Shown here one piece after another: positions 42,250 through 64,000 of a DNA stretch of 64,000 bases; the stretch's first letter is position 1; each line of letters opens with the position of its first letter. Below the pieces are notes generated by a model. The model saw only the letters and a list, made by a program, of their open reading frames with translations, had not been told where the DNA came from and made no database searches. The translations under genes and the position numbers were made by a program. Source of the stretch: a virus. The stretch covers positions 62,001 to 126,000 of the IMG/VR virus record IMGVR_UViG_3300032308_002010; one strand, written 5' to 3'.

Positions 42250-43335
42250 TCAGCCATTTTGCCGGGTTTTCACCACCATCTGCGAGCGGCCGGGCCACAA
42301 TACCATCTGTTGCATTGTGTCCTCGTCCGTTACGTCTTTCAGTAACTGCAGAGCTGTTACTGGTCGCTGCGCAATACTATCTTTACGCTCGTCGGTCAGA
42401 CTGTTGCGCAGCACAGCCTGAAGCGCGGTATATCGGGGATACGTCACCCACTCATTCTCATCATCGTTCTCTGGGTTGTACTCAGCGTACGGCCCAGCCA
42501 CGTAATGATTCGTTTGCACAAGGCCATGCGGCTTGGTGCGAATGGTTGATTTCTCTCCAACATGCGTTACTACAGTGTGTTCACGGGCTTTGGTGCCAAC
42601 CACGTGCGCAAAGAACGGCACGATGGTTTCATAGCTCCGTAACCCAAGAATCAGACTGTTGTAACTTTTTGGAAATCGGTCGCAGACGGCTCGGACCCGC
42701 TGTAACACGGGCCACCTAAAGAGCAGCGCCGGCGCCGATAACCAGCCAAGCAAGCTATTCAGTTTGTTAACAACTGGAGCCTGATTGACAGTGACAGCCC
42801 ACGAATCACCCATAGCCGATATCACGCCCACCATGCCCGCCACGCCTACAGATGTATAAGCGCTGCGCCCACGGTGAAAGCGAAAGATCCGCGTGTGCCT
42901 GCCTGTACTGCGAGGCACAACCCAGTCCATGTTACGGACCAGCACGGGAGACTTCTCGACCTCAAAGCTGACGCTAGAGCAGCCACAACCATACATCTCA
43001 GAAAGAGAAGTAAAGTCGTAGATGAGGTTTCCCAACATGAGCTTACCCACAGGAACTTCGGCGTGCCGGGCTATGCACGCTAACTCCTGTGTGTAATCTT
43101 CGCCAAACATGCCGACCATTTGGCGAAGTAACCAGCCGCCACCGGACGCCATCGCATGCACAGCCGTGATAAGCGGACTGGGCAGGTGTGGCGCCAATGT
43201 CTCTTCGATCTCTTCTTCGACATCGGAGAGAATGGACTGAATGGCGTCTCCGTTTTGGATAGCAAAATCAGTCCAGCGTTCGTCAGCGGGTGCGTCCAGA
43301 TCAATGTCATGGACTTTCCCGGTGAAGAGCTTCAT
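42250..43335 (-). CDS. Acid ceramidase/NAAA-like amide hydrolase
   Basis: 361 residues. The signature 'YDFTSLSEMYGCGCSSVSFE' then 'RNMDWVVP' (134-141) matches the nucleophile segment of acid ceramidase/N-acylethanolamine amidase (CTSI...RNLDW), with Cys 119 the candidate nucleophile. 'AVTVNQAP' and 'GLVQTNHY' agree with the later conserved Asn-containing loops. In the usual family an N-terminal segment is cleaved before the Cys. Here ~118 residues precede it. Likely hydrolyses an amide bond in a lipid or small molecule. Cellular target unknown and unusual for a phage. Confidence 0.75.
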   Translation of the reverse strand: MKLFTGKVHDIDLDAPADERWTDFAIQNGDAIQSILSDVEEEIEETLAPHLPSPLITAVHAMASGGGWLLRQMVGMFGEDYTQELACIARHAEVPVGKLMLGNLIYDFTSLSEMYGCGCSSVSFEVEKSPVLVRNMDWVVPRSTGRHTRIFRFHRGRSAYTSVGVAGMVGVISAMGDSWAVTVNQAPVVNKLNSLLGWLSAPALLFRWPVLQRVRAVCDRFPKSYNSLILGLRSYETIVPFFAHVVGTKAREHTVVTHVGEKSTIRTKPHGLVQTNHYVAGPYAEYNPENDDENEWVTYPRYTALQAVLRNSLTDERKDSIAQRPVTALQLLKDVTDEDTMQQMVLWPGRSQMVVKTRQNG

Positions 43336-47606: not shown

Positions 47607-47643
47607 TCAATAGATATGCCCGGATTTTTGGGTTTATTTAGCT
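47607..47643 (-). promoter_or_regulatory. Phage promoter-type element, copy 4
   Basis: Minus-strand AGCTAAATAA (47643-47634), 10 bases, CCGGGCATATCTATTGA (47623-47607). It follows the terminator of the large structured RNA by only 14 bases, so transcription stops and restarts here. Confidence 0.82.
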
Positions 47644-47657
47644 GCGGGCCGATAGCT

Positions 47658-48127
47658 AAAAAAAAAGCCGGCAGGGGAGCGCACCCCTGCCGACTCTTGG
47701 CGAATTAACGAGTCGCCACCCGTGCCGAAGCGACCAATCGGTCGCCAAGAAAGCGTTAGCACAAGAAACGCTCGCGAGGACAGGTATCACTACCCGCCTA
47801 CGCCCTGCAGCCGTTTGTTAGGTTACAGACAAGTTCGCACTGTACGGGCGCAAACTTTGATTACTGAAAATCCGTCTGGCAGGTCTTTCACCTGCACCAC
47901 TCGCTCCCCTAGTCATATGTAGTGTAGTCGAGTGGAGCCACTTGGAATAGCCACGAGGCCCGGGCAGGGCTTGCCCGCTATTCCGCCATCTACCCTAACG
48001 GTTCCTGCAAAACATTTCACAAAAACCGCTCGTCACAGCCCTCTGCATGCACCTAGAGATAGGTTCATACACATGCTTCTCGCGAGCGCTTCTTGTGCCA
48101 ACGTCTGGATTCTAGCATCCATGTTGG
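47658..48127 (-). ncRNA. Large structured RNA (~470 nt) with 25-bp closing helix and terminator
   Basis: Bases 48079-48103 pair with 47754-47778 in an unbroken 25-bp helix. The two non-identical positions are G.U pairs on the minus strand (A.C on the plus strand), so the RNA is minus-strand. Inside are stems GGAATAGC/GCTATTCC, CCACTCG/CGAGTGG, GCAGG/CCTGC and AAGTTTGC/GCGAACTT (with a U.G pair). 3' of the helix come GCGACC/GGTCGC, GGCGA/TCGCC and a 9-bp terminator (47669-47692) with nine T. No open reading frame explains it. No known RNA family recognised. It may be a 3' extension of 48128..48415 or an independent RNA. Confidence 0.75.
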
Positions 48128-48415
48128 CTACGTCAACGTATCAATATAGTGCTGCGTCACGCACACATAACGCGTAACGATTTCTTCGGCTTCACTTCCG
48201 GGGCAGCGCTGGTCTAACTTTTGGGCCAGCGCGTCCATTGCCTTGCGGATATTTAACAGCGCACGGCGAAGTTGTTTCACTTCGATCTCCGCGTCTGTTT
48301 TATACCTCGTCCCGCTCTTCGTGTTCACCTGCGGTTCCAACGCTGTTTTCTCCTTGTGTACTACTTCCGTCCACCATTGGTTGTTCCAGTTCACTGCCGT
48401 CCTCGTCGCTGGCAT
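48128..48415 (-). CDS. Small hypothetical protein, helical C-terminus
   Basis: 95 residues if started at ATG 48415. A TTG at 48340, eight bases after AAGGAG, gives a 70-residue form with less overlap with the previous gene. Residues ~45-75 are an amphipathic helix (VKQLRRALLNIRKAMDALAQ). It overlaps 48300..48599 in another frame by up to 116 bases. Last protein gene before the structured RNA. Function unknown. Confidence 0.55.
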   Translation of the reverse strand: MPATRTAVNWNNQWWTEVVHKEKTALEPQVNTKSGTRYKTDAEIEVKQLRRALLNIRKAMDALAQKLDQRCPGSEAEEIVTRYVCVTQHYIDTLT

Positions 48416-51911: not shown

Positions 51912-52256
51912 TGGAGGCGGCGGGAATCGAACCCGCGTCCAGAGATATCTCCAGAAAGAACGTCTACGTGTGTAGGCAGTTGTTGTTTACACTCCTGCCA
52001 AAGTTAGCCGATTATCGGCGTCAGGTGGGCTACCACCATCTTGCCCTTTCTTACTGGGCCAGATCAGCCGATTATCGGCGTCAACCTGATTGGGCAATAA
52101 GGCTCAGGTCGCCTCACTCACTGGCCTATTAACTAGGCAGCGAGGGCCGGAGCATAAGCGCCAGCTAGAAACGTAATCGGCTTTTAACGTGGCCCACCGA
52201 TCAACCACGACACGCAGTCCTAACCTTCCTTATCCTGTCGAAACCAGTACGCCCCC
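51912..52256 (-). ncRNA. ssrA: tmRNA (phage-encoded ssrA)
   Basis: 345 bases. 5' end GGGGGCGTACTGGTTTCGACAGG is the canonical tmRNA start. The 3' end is a T arm (GCGGGTTCGATTCCCGC) plus CGCCTCC and discriminator A pairing with the 5' acceptor strand. The tag frame (52165-52133) encodes AGAYAPALAA and stops at TAG, ending in the usual ALAA degron. CCA is not encoded. It rescues stalled ribosomes by trans-translation and marks the product for degradation. Phage tmRNAs are known but uncommon. Confidence 0.93.
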
Positions 52257-59743: not shown

Positions 59744-62700
59744 CTATGGCAGCGGATTTGTTTTCAGATCTTCAAGCAGCGTAAACGCTTCGGCGCACGT
59801 AACCGGAAGTTCGCCCGGCCAGTCTATGTTTGGAAGCGAACACACCGATTTTGTTGGGTTGCAGAAAGAACTCGGCCCATCAGTGCCGCCGTTTTTGAGC
59901 GCTTCAGCAGTTACGTCTTCAAATTTGTTATCTACGCACATGTACAATTTAATTTCTGATTGCCCGCCCTCGACGGGGCGATTGCCAAAAAGACTAGCGC
60001 AAAGACAGCAAGTATTGACGCAATATTTAATCCGCACGATATACGCATAGACCGCACCCGCAACCGGATGACAGTTTTTCCAGTTGTTGTTCCCTAAGGC
60101 CGCCACACCAAGTCTTATAGAAGTTATGCCAGCTATACCGCCCTCACGGCCACTGCTTCCGGGCGGGGTTGAAAAAGAACCGTCGGGACAATTTCCGGCG
60201 CACGGATGCGTAACAGAGCTTAAACAAGGATACGTGCCGTTTTCGCAACGCGCGGCGTCTGTCGCGCAGCCGTTACCTTCGCACGGGCACTCTCTGCAAC
60301 CGCCCGCACACACGTTTTTACAAGTCAGCCCAGTAACTTGGCAGTTTTGACACCCGTTATTGGTTGTGCAACTCGGATCGTTCGTGCAGGCGGCCCAACT
60401 ATGCGTTGGCGCCTGTGTCGGGCAGGTGCATTTAAAACCGTTTTTTCCGCAGCAGTCAGTTTTTGTTGCGCAAAAAGTATTACCAGTGGCGAGTTCTGTA
60501 CACACACCTTTGCACGGATCACATTTTGTATTAAACGGAACTAGCTCACACGCAGCCGTGTTGTTGTCTGCGTTCTCTTTACAGCACGGTTTATTGCCGC
60601 AATTGATTGAATCACACGTTTCAAACGGTTGCCAGCCCGTCTGACGATCTGGCGGATCTTGTGCTGCCGCTGCAAGACAATCTTCGTAGTTGGTGCCGAT
60701 GCACTCGCCGTTTATGATATTTCCGCCGCCATCAAAAGTAATCTGACAGCACGCGCCGCACTTAGTGCCGTCGCCGCACTGATCGCTCCACGAGTTTTTT
60801 CCCGGGCCACAATTGCTGCCGTCGTCGCCACAGCAGTTTTGTTTTGTATTGCAGAGTTTGGCGCCAGTTGTGTCTGTGCAGATTCCGTGGCAGTAGTTGC
60901 AGTCGTCATTAAAATCTATGTCGGCGCACGTCACACCGATGCACTGCGAATCTTGACAGCATTTTTTTGTCGCGCATTTAACGGTGTCGCATGTTTCAAA
61001 CGGATGCCACGTTGCAACAAAAAATGGCGGAGCATTTTGGGTTGTGCAATCTTCTTGAGTACCGTTAACGCAGTTTGCCGAAACTACGTTGCCGTCTTCA
61101 TACTCAACAACGCAGCAAACGCCACATTTAGACCCGTCTGCGCAATCGGGCGCCCACGAATGTGTTTGGTCTTGCCCGCACACGCCGCCGCATTTGCCCC
61201 CGTCAGAGCCGCAACAGCTCTCTTTTGACGAACATGATTTCTTGCCGGTTTCAATATCGGTGCAGATGCCTTTACACGGATCGCACTCTTTATTGAAATC
61301 AACATCGACGCATCCGACCTTTTTAGCGCAATCTTCTCCGCAACATTTTTTTGTTGCGCATTTAATAGATCCGCACGTTTCAAATTCGTGCCAAGACGTT
61401 ACTTTATCTGGCGGGTCAGACGCGGCGGTACATGATTTATTCGTGCCTTTTGCGCAACTCGTGCTTTTCAGTTCGCCGTCTTCATAATTAAGCGTGCAAC
61501 ATACGCCACATTTTGAGCCGTCACCGCAAGCGCCGCTCCAGCTGTGTGTCGCAACTTTTTCGCAGGCGCCGCAATTTTCGCCGTTAACTCCGCAGCAATC
61601 TTGTTTTGTTTTGCAAGACGTTTCACCGGTAGCGAGTTCTGTGCATATGCTGCTGCACGGATCACACGTCTCGTTAAAATCGATTTGTATGCAGGTAAAT
61701 ACTGTGCTGCCCGGACATTTTGGTCCGCAGCACGTTTTTGTCGCACATTTTACGGACGCGCATGTTTCAAACGGCCGCCAACTCGCGACGATGTCATCGC
61801 CATTGTCTAACGCTAGGCACGCGTCTTTTGCTATCTTTTGACAGTCTGCAGATTTTATTTCGCCGTCGTCGTCTAGCACTATTTTGCAACAGACGCCGCA
61901 CTCGTTCGCATCTGCGCACGCAGCTGACCATGACTTAGTGGCCACACCACCGCCGCAATCTGTCTGATCTTCGCAGGCTTTACCGTCACCGCCGCAACAC
62001 GATTGTTTTGTTTTGCACGTCTTTGCGCCGCTTGCGATATCCGTGCAAAGACCTTTGCACGGATCACACTCTTTATTGAAGTCAACCTCGACACACGCAT
62101 CTTCGCCGGCGCAGTTTTTATCGCAGCATGTTTTTGTTGCGCACTTTGCCGACTCGCATGTGGCGTTGTCAACCCAGCTGTGCGTAACATTCGGCGCCTG
62201 CCCGAGAGCCTGACATTCTTGTTTTGTTTTTTGTATGCACTCGGCCGCGGTTGTTTTAGTGCCGTCTGTGGTGACTTTACAGCAGACGCCACATTTTTCA
62301 TCGCTGCCGCACGGGCCAGCCCAGCCGGCTTTTTTGGGTATTTTTGTTCCGTCGCTTTTTGTGCATTCTTCGCAATTGTAATTATTGTCGCCGCAACACT
62401 CGGCTTTTGTTTTGCACGTAATTTCACCGGGATTGCCGGCAGCGTCATATGCCGTACATAACCCAGCGCATTCGTCGCAGTCTTTGTTGAAATCAACGTC
62501 AATGCAGGCGTTCTTCCCTGTGCACTCGTCTACATCACAGCACTTCTTTGTTGCACATCGCGCGTTTTCACAATTTGTAAACGGTTTCCACGTCCAAAAC
62601 ACATTTGCGTTTACATTGCCGGCTTCGTTAGCGCACTGATCTTGATCTAACTCTTTGCACTCAACTTTGATAGTTTTGCCGTTGGTATCCGTTGTCACGC

Positions 62701-64000
62701 CGCAACAGACGCCGCATTTCTTAGCATCAGCACACGAGGCGTCCCACGCGAATTTTGCGTGATCGCCGGGGTTGCACGGTTCACACTTTTTACCGTCGGC
62801 GCCGCAGCAATCGTCTTTTGTCTTGCATTTAACGTCTGTTTCATTTCCGTCTTCGTCGTATTCAGTACACAGACCTTTGCATTCGTCGCATTCTTCGTCG
62901 TAGTCGACGTCGATACACTGAGACTTGCCGCATGACGTTTCTTTGCAGCATTTTTTAGCTCGGCATATGACCGAGTCGCATGTTTCGTATTGATGCCATG
63001 TCCCAGTTTTGTTTGGATCTTCATTTATTTCGGCGCATTCTTTGTACGTAATTTCTTGGCACGAGGAATCTACAATTTCTCCATCTTCATAAGTAAGTTC
63101 GCAACATACACCGCATTTTTCGTTTTCGTCGCCAATGTTTGTGCAGATAGGCGACCAGCTGTGTGTCTTACAATCTGCCGGGCCGTTACATTTTTGTCCG
63201 TCGTCGCCGCAGCATGAAGTTTTTGTCGCGCACGATTCCTCGTCTGTTTCAAGCTCAACACACCGCCCTTCGCACTCATCGCAGTCGTCTTCGAAGTCGA
63301 CTGTTTTGCAACCTATTTTACCGGTCTCTTCGCAAATGACCCCGCAGCATTGTTTTGTCGCGCATTTTGTACTTTCGCACGTTTCGAATGCACGCCAACT
63401 TGCCACAATGTTGTCGCCGTTATCTTGAGCTTCGCATTCTGTTTTTGTGGTATCGGATTGGCATTCAGTATCCTCTACACCTGTCCCATCTTCTTTTAAA
63501 GTGATGATGCAACATACACCACATTTTTCTGGGTCAGCGCACGCAGAATTCCAAGAAAACTCTGCAGTGTTTCCTTCTTTGCACGGATCGCCTACACATT
63601 TTGTTCCGTCTTCTCCGCAGCAATCTGACTTTGTTGCGCACCGTTTTTCATTGTCTGCGTTTTTAACACAAAATCCGCGGCATTTATCCTCGCAGTTGTC
63701 TTTGCTAACTTTAACGCAAACAACCTGTTTTGATTCTTCGCATTCAACCTCACGACAACAATTTACGCCATCGCAAACAGAACAGGTCTCGAACGGAAAC
63801 CACGAGCCTTTGCTTTTGCCCATCGGGGTTTTTAAATCTTCACATTCGTCTCGTGTCTTCGGACCTTCGTCGCACTCTTTGCCTATTTCTTTGGTTTCAT
63901 CTTCGTTGTAAACGGTTACGCAGCAAATTCCGCACTCGTCTGGGTTACTTCCGCAGTTGGTTTCTTCCCACAAAAATTTTGCGCCTTCTGGGCACAAAAT
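59744..64000 (-). CDS. Giant Cys-rich repeat protein, 5' end cut by window
   Basis: More than 1,410 residues are seen and the frame is still open at base 64000. At least nine units of ~125-140 residues repeat, each marked by 'KCGVCC', 'W.PFETC.S..CATK.CC', 'VDFN..CD.CKG.CT' and 'C.TK..CCG.DG..C', with ~20 Cys per unit. Units vary at surface positions. The last ~250 residues are a different, still Cys-bearing domain (e.g. 'AYIVRIKYCVNTCCLCASLF'). Probably a long disulfide- or metal-stabilised fibre on the virion. No known family is assigned. Confidence 0.85.
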   Translation of the reverse strand: MLCPEGAKFLWEETNCGSNPDECGICCVTVYNEDETKEIGKECDEGPKTRDECEDLKTPMGKSKGSWFPFETCSVCDGVNCCREVECEESKQVVCVKVSKDNCEDKCRGFCVKNADNEKRCATKSDCCGEDGTKCVGDPCKEGNTAEFSWNSACADPEKCGVCCIITLKEDGTGVEDTECQSDTTKTECEAQDNGDNIVASWRAFETCESTKCATKQCCGVICEETGKIGCKTVDFEDDCDECEGRCVELETDEESCATKTSCCGDDGQKCNGPADCKTHSWSPICTNIGDENEKCGVCCELTYEDGEIVDSSCQEITYKECAEINEDPNKTGTWHQYETCDSVICRAKKCCKETSCGKSQCIDVDYDEECDECKGLCTEYDEDGNETDVKCKTKDDCCGADGKKCEPCNPGDHAKFAWDASCADAKKCGVCCGVTTDTNGKTIKVECKELDQDQCANEAGNVNANVFWTWKPFTNCENARCATKKCCDVDECTGKNACIDVDFNKDCDECAGLCTAYDAAGNPGEITCKTKAECCGDNNYNCEECTKSDGTKIPKKAGWAGPCGSDEKCGVCCKVTTDGTKTTAAECIQKTKQECQALGQAPNVTHSWVDNATCESAKCATKTCCDKNCAGEDACVEVDFNKECDPCKGLCTDIASGAKTCKTKQSCCGGDGKACEDQTDCGGGVATKSWSAACADANECGVCCKIVLDDDGEIKSADCQKIAKDACLALDNGDDIVASWRPFETCASVKCATKTCCGPKCPGSTVFTCIQIDFNETCDPCSSICTELATGETSCKTKQDCCGVNGENCGACEKVATHSWSGACGDGSKCGVCCTLNYEDGELKSTSCAKGTNKSCTAASDPPDKVTSWHEFETCGSIKCATKKCCGEDCAKKVGCVDVDFNKECDPCKGICTDIETGKKSCSSKESCCGSDGGKCGGVCGQDQTHSWAPDCADGSKCGVCCVVEYEDGNVVSANCVNGTQEDCTTQNAPPFFVATWHPFETCDTVKCATKKCCQDSQCIGVTCADIDFNDDCNYCHGICTDTTGAKLCNTKQNCCGDDGSNCGPGKNSWSDQCGDGTKCGACCQITFDGGGNIINGECIGTNYEDCLAAAAQDPPDRQTGWQPFETCDSINCGNKPCCKENADNNTAACELVPFNTKCDPCKGVCTELATGNTFCATKTDCCGKNGFKCTCPTQAPTHSWAACTNDPSCTTNNGCQNCQVTGLTCKNVCAGGCRECPCEGNGCATDAARCENGTYPCLSSVTHPCAGNCPDGSFSTPPGSSGREGGIAGITSIRLGVAALGNNNWKNCHPVAGAVYAYIVRIKYCVNTCCLCASLFGNRPVEGGQSEIKLYMCVDNKFEDVTAEALKNGGTDGPSSFCNPTKSVCSLPNIDWPGELPVTCAEAFTLLEDLKTNPLP

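Follow-up and report, generated by a model that had tools for sequence, protein, structure and literature searches.

Positions 47658 to 48127 of an uncultured phage sequence can be folded into an elaborate set of hairpins. The locus raises the question of whether it encodes a structured RNA, on which strand, and whether such an RNA belongs to a known family. The stretch analysed (the window, 64,000 nt) corresponds to bases 62001-126000 of a 193.8-kb IMG/VR virus record. This record encodes a distant multisubunit RNA polymerase, whose closest known relative is about 32% identical, as well as tRNAs and a tmRNA.

Relatives were collected through the RNA polymerase gene (49 loci) and a neighbouring gene, and the complete records were then searched. 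The match to the polymerase gene spans about 5.4 kb rather than 4.4 kb in L032, L034, L035, L036 and L050, which suggests an insertion of about 1 kb in these five genes, either an intron, an intein or a homing gene. Elsewhere in the window, 42250-43335 on the minus strand encodes a phage protein with a weak match to the NAAA-beta (acid amidase) domain, and 59744-63997, also on the minus strand, encodes a cysteine-rich protein of 1417 aa built of many similar repeats.

Fold of the RNA and its closing helix

The closing helix, P1, was found by an inverted-repeat search as two 25-nt arms, 47754-47778 and 48079-48103, that are 300 nt apart and 92% complementary. The preliminary description had placed a 25-bp pairing here whose only two departures from Watson-Crick pairing are G.U on the minus strand, and both observations hold (alignment columns 29/379 and 39/369). 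The minus strand from 48127 to 47652 (476 nt) has a minimum free energy of -220.8 kcal/mol, against -167.4 +/- 7.4 for dinucleotide shuffles (z -7.2, with none of 100 shuffles as low), and the plus strand of the same segment reaches only -177.2 kcal/mol. The conserved structure on the minus strand contains 148 G.U cells and 5 A.C cells, P1 alone contributing 13 and 1. The count for the whole structure is partly biased because that structure was derived on the minus strand, in contrast to P1, which was detected simply as an inverted repeat. The preference for G.U over A.C fixes the minus strand, as had been proposed.

At least nine helices lie inside P1, with a hairpin, a pseudoknot and a terminator hairpin 3' of it, so that the earlier count of at least six further hairpins is met. 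The elements are as follows.

48079-48103, minus strand: 5' strand of P1, the closing helix of 25 bp; double changes at 9 of its 25 pairs
47754-47778, minus strand: 3' strand of P1, from the inverted repeat and the alignment
48045-48076, minus strand: P2/P2b hairpin with the highly conserved sequence TGAACCTATCTCTAGGTGCA, a motif kept in the distant L068
48021-48043, minus strand: P3 hairpin, larger in G040; double changes at 4 of 8 pairs
47800-48015, minus strand: P4/P5, the multibranch domain of the interior, with 48015-48005/47810-47800 and 47999-47994/47822-47817 as closing pairings
47944-47984, minus strand: P6 arm; double changes at 3 of 9 pairs
47897-47935, minus strand: P7 arm (CCACUCG/CGAGUGG); a single doubly changed pair, with changes on only one side elsewhere
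47879-47895, minus strand: P8, a T-arm-like hairpin of 5 bp with the 7-nt loop UGAAAGA
47826-47878, minus strand: P9/P9b apical stem, 10 bp; six or seven pairs doubly changed, depending on the count
47779-47798, minus strand: P10 hairpin, GGCGGGUA-GUGA-UACCUGUC, kept in L068
47729-47746, minus strand: P11 hairpin of the 3' domain
47699-47722, minus strand: H-type pseudoknot in the 3' domain, in which CGGG:CUCG and GGCGA:UCGCC interleave

The loop of P8 is T-loop-like by sequence, and every homolog, L068 included, has kept the hairpin. Other phage elements also contain the T-arm-like hairpin GTGCAGGTGAAAGNCCTG. Wider kinship through this hairpin was considered and rejected, the remaining sequence being unmatched, which leaves a shared module or convergence. 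tRNA-like elements with the T-arm GCAGG-UGAAAGN-CCUGC are present in L081 (about 1585-1685), L091 (about 2290-2400), L084, L092, L093, L095 and L097. Two of these lie inside phage tRNA arrays, the one in L091 folds as a cloverleaf, and none is called by ARAGORN or Rfam. The L084-type elements have GGGATGGAGCTCGAAAAGC...CCATCCCACC in common.

Homologs and compensatory changes

The homologs lie in related phage contigs of ~200 kb. The RNA was found by DNA search at 84-96% identity in G001, G002, G003, G012, G015 and G035, and as fragments in G027 and G040. Motif scans add two further contigs, L064 and L065, which are identical over the 820 nt that surround the RNA. Scans of viral contigs for exact motifs gave only about nine or ten carriers, all apparently of this phage clade, and phage and plasmid collections yielded no carrier. 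Four matches in a scan of genome contigs look like chance occurrences of the motif, without support from the RNA model in the surrounding sequence. Most relatives in the wider clade are without the RNA.

The covariation alignment holds eight distinct sequences and a consensus structure of 146 pairs, with 99.0% of its cells paired. Compensatory changes, which the preliminary description had suggested looking for in related phages, are present: 27 pairs (57 cells) carry a change in both partners, where shuffles average 13 and none of 500 reaches as many, and sliding the partners as a control drops the number to 1-6. Besides P1, the apical stem P9b, P3 and P6 covary; P4/P5 could not be tested in this way because its pairing is nearly invariant. 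Independent events are fewer than the cell counts since the sequences are related, but changes occurred in at least two lineages as well as in G040. P1 has been rebuilt in separate lineages, G012/G015 (AUGGCAUGCCUGUAAG/CUUACAGGCAUGCCAU) and G040, and its nine doubly changed pairs are mainly the result of new sequence in the middle of both strands in G012/G015. Comparison of the sequences strongly supports selection on base pairing rather than on protein.

The locus might instead not encode an RNA at all, since two short ORFs (47722-47922 and 47932-48177) exist on the plus strand and the arms of P1 could be a DNA inverted repeat such as an origin or a recombination site. Single-base indels between homologs in this region exclude coding on either strand, however, and G.U is tolerated where A.C is not. 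With covariation in many interior helices, and a promoter and a terminator in register (see below), this explanation is already contradicted and scarcely credible.

G040 (contig L068) carries the one distant homolog, 409 nt long, with a local alignment score of 129 against a shuffle maximum of 39 and a model match of E 2e-32, the G040 sequence itself being included in the model. Its overall topology is the same, with a 27-bp P1, but its 3' domain is different and longer. In G027 the core of about 300 nt is lost; what remains is P1, here a perfect 17-bp helix with a short loop, plus the 3' domain and the terminator.

Transcription signals and neighbouring genes

The features flanking the fold, all on the minus strand, are as follows.

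48128-48415, minus strand: companion gene for a 95-aa helical protein, immediately upstream of the RNA
48109-48136, minus strand: sigma70-like promoter of the RNA, TTGACG (48136-48131), a 16-nt spacer with TG, and TAGAAT (48114-48109)
47655-47698, minus strand: intrinsic terminator hairpin and U-run, the RNA 3' end by pattern
47608-47643, minus strand: phage-wide motif of about 35 nt, GCTAAATA-n-CAAAA-n-GGCATAT, directly after the terminator and outside the RNA
51912-52256, minus strand: phage-encoded tmRNA with the tag GAYAPALAA, accompanied by five tRNAs

The promoter and terminator were identified by pattern scan. The -35 element overlaps the last codons of the upstream gene and the promoter ends five bases before P1, which places the +1 at the first bases of P1. 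Homologs have a promoter-like pair with similar spacing despite a diverged flank (TTGACC-16-TAAACT in G035, for example). On these two patterns alone, the RNA probably runs from about 48103 to about 47655, or some 450 nt. The second stem of the 3' pseudoknot is GGCGA:UCGCC, GCGGA:UCCGU or GUGGG:CCCAC in the homologs. The strong terminator reported earlier is real by pattern (hairpin 47698-47663). The promoter-type element said to follow it is also present, but it is one copy of the phage-wide motif and is probably the promoter of the next gene rather than part of the RNA. Further copies of the motif are found at 42248-42212 on the minus strand of the window and in L102, L105, L110 and L116, often right after terminators ending TTTTTAGCTAT; it is probably the promoter used by the phage RNA polymerase.

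A terminator directly after a fold is also the arrangement of an attenuator, and the downstream gene (47478) is present in several relatives, so the RNA could be a cis-acting leader for that gene. This seems very unlikely, as the terminator is followed by a promoter-like motif of the next gene's own and no antiterminator alternative was identified. In addition, G035 has a different sequence after the terminator, with the downstream cassette about 800 bp away, and no homolog of the downstream gene turned up in G040 or G027, both of which carry the RNA or its minimal form.

P1 could also be a processing stem for RNase III, as around rRNA, that releases a functional core of about 300 nt. The helix is near-perfect over 25-27 bp, longer than is required to hold the fold, and closes exactly on the core. 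Against this, there is no 5' precursor to remove because P1 begins at the transcription start, and G027 keeps a perfect 17-bp P1 hairpin although its core is gone. Processing of this kind is improbable, but it does not exclude the folded-scaffold reading favoured below.

Among 28 relative records, 8 have the 95-aa gene, and these are precisely the ones that carry the RNA or its minimal form; in each genome examined the RNA directly follows the gene. The protein has no informative match in Pfam, PHROG or the PDB, and its predicted structure (mean pLDDT 74.7) shows no informative fold. The association could be mere clade linkage. Every RNA-bearing genome examined has a conserved tRNA cluster 3-6 kb upstream of the RNA, and most have a tmRNA there: one is called in G012, G035, G002 and G027, and none in the examined stretches of G015, G003 and G040.

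These neighbours bear on a further alternative, a trans-acting regulatory RNA or RNP that binds the 95-aa protein or pairs with RNAs of the host or the phage (as a sponge, decoy or antisense RNA) and so controls expression or translation. Strict adjacency to and co-occurrence with the 95-aa gene would fit this, as would the T-arm-like P8 and the position near tRNA and tmRNA genes, and the sigma70-type promoter suggests expression driven by the host RNA polymerase. The model of the protein, however, contains no known RNA-binding fold, and the size and ornateness of the RNA exceed what a base-pairing sRNA needs. A regulatory role is unlikely on balance, yet deserves to be kept in view.

In G022/G043 this locus, with the tRNA/tmRNA cluster on one side and the same downstream gene, MPFKSEKQRRF, on the other, has another candidate RNA (L110:7616-8069). 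It is a 454-nt fold with z -7.6 and, like the window RNA, is closed by a 25-bp helix, in this case perfect. It differs in having no 95-aa gene and no terminator directly after P1, and its sequence is not similar to that of the window RNA (score 23, against 24 for shuffles). The segment is identical in G043 and four contig loci, and it has no covariation support because all copies found are identical. Model R1 scores 17.5 bits inside it, which at first suggested remote homology, but homology is not claimed, because a match of the same model in L115 (17.7 bits) is only a terminator and promoter-like motif and the sequence test is null. Two other candidates were also set aside: a 31-bp inverted repeat in L115 falls in coding sequence, and the strong folding of L116 comes mostly from long terminator and leader hairpins. 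L110 also has, close to the tRNA/tmRNA cluster at about 2850-2945, a separate long hairpin of about 20 bp (ACGTAACTCCTTA.../...TAAGGAGTTACG) with a terminator after it.

Relation to known RNAs and possible function

With its own promoter and terminator, a conserved structure and no coding potential, the locus has the properties of an independent non-coding RNA gene, and from its sequence it is almost certainly a real, independent structured RNA. A cmscan search against the 4227 families of Rfam 15 gave no match in the region even at E<=5, save weak sub-threshold terminator-like ones. The covariance model of ROOL (RF03087) has no match in the region at its gathering score or at E<=5, nor has that of GOLLD (RF02032) any match there; neither RNA was found in the relatives (27 in the case of ROOL) by searches that lacked a positive control. 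There is likewise no Rfam match of the window RNA to OLE, HEARO, RNase P, group I/II introns or riboswitches, and neither ARAGORN nor Rfam finds a tRNA or tmRNA in the RNA region, where there is only the T-arm-like hairpin. The preliminary description, which had proposed this covariance-model search, likened the RNA to ROOL and GOLLD and recognised it as neither; the lack of Rfam matches and the tRNA-island context shared with ROOL agree with both statements. As the RNA belongs neither to ROOL or GOLLD nor to any of the other Rfam families tested, it is presented as a new family, though a description of it outside Rfam or in unpublished work cannot be excluded.

To our knowledge, large structured phage RNAs are few and unexplained. 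ROOL is marked by an octameric RNA-only nanocage, and GOLLD by homo-oligomers formed through conserved symmetric loops. Like GOLLD, the window RNA is large, ornate, associated with phages and linked to tRNAs, but it has no tRNA inside it and no match to the GOLLD model. OLE is also large and ornate, with a palindromic symmetric kissing loop (GGCC/GAUC/AGCU) and protein partners, whereas the window RNA occurs only in phages here, has no adjacent membrane-protein gene and has no match to OLE in Rfam. ROOL is a large non-coding phage or prophage RNA with an ornate multibranched fold, found near tRNA islands and non-essential (PMC12286853), and is similar in these respects. The window RNA is shorter than ROOL (659 nt for ROOL env-120; PMC12286853), has a different architecture and no covariance-model match, and lacks cage data, RNA-only cages having been solved for ROOL and GOLLD (PMC12286853). 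The phi29 pRNA is a phage RNA that forms homomeric complexes (cited in PMC12286853), but the window RNA is far larger, without a sequence match or data linking it to a packaging motor.

The P9b loop, CCGUACA (47847-47841), is invariant except in the distant L068, which has CUGAUCA. GUAC is thereby exchanged for GAUC, a self-complementary tetranucleotide at the same place in both. This resembles the palindrome-to-palindrome switches of the OLE and GOLLD kissing loops cited in PMC12286853. The GOLLD loops are proposed to dimerise. The change seen here is one event in one loop, with a chance of about 1 in 16, so self-association through the palindromic P9b loop is suggested, not shown, and the pointer is weak. 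No internal disordered linker was identified in the window RNA.

The overall interpretation, for which confidence falls just short of even, is a new family of standalone, accessory non-coding phage RNAs of about 450 nt, probably folded scaffolds like ROOL and GOLLD. The sequence shows or strongly supports a host-type (sigma70) promoter with the start at P1, then the ornate 300-nt interior, the 3' strand of P1, the 3' domain (hairpin and pseudoknot) and the intrinsic terminator. By inference, and without expression data, the product would be a trans-acting structural RNA made during infection. The sealed P1 and the terminator may protect the RNA ends, and the interior may act as a scaffold that binds itself through the palindromic apical loop, and/or binds a partner such as the 95-aa protein encoded next to it or the translation apparatus. 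The function is inferred from build, position and dispensability, which match the ROOL/GOLLD type, without transcript, abundance, oligomer or partner data, and a scaffold or oligomer role by itself remains tentative. The RNA appears dispensable, and could be regulatory, because most wider-clade relatives are without it and G027 has lost the interior.

More speculatively, and with doubt prevailing, one locus beside the tRNA/tmRNA cluster may dock unrelated large RNAs, each with a closing helix of 25-27 bp, the RNA in one clade being self-associating and having a dedicated small protein. The unrelated RNA at the same locus, together with the window RNA, allows function to be asked about, and whether self-assembly is general. 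The family is compact, and its covariation-supported structure, promoter, terminator, linked gene and core-less form in G027 make it a tractable system. With it, the few large viral RNAs that lack an explanation gain another member. If the docking locus is real, helix-closed ornate RNAs would be an exchangeable functional class in large phages that is broader than ROOL and GOLLD.
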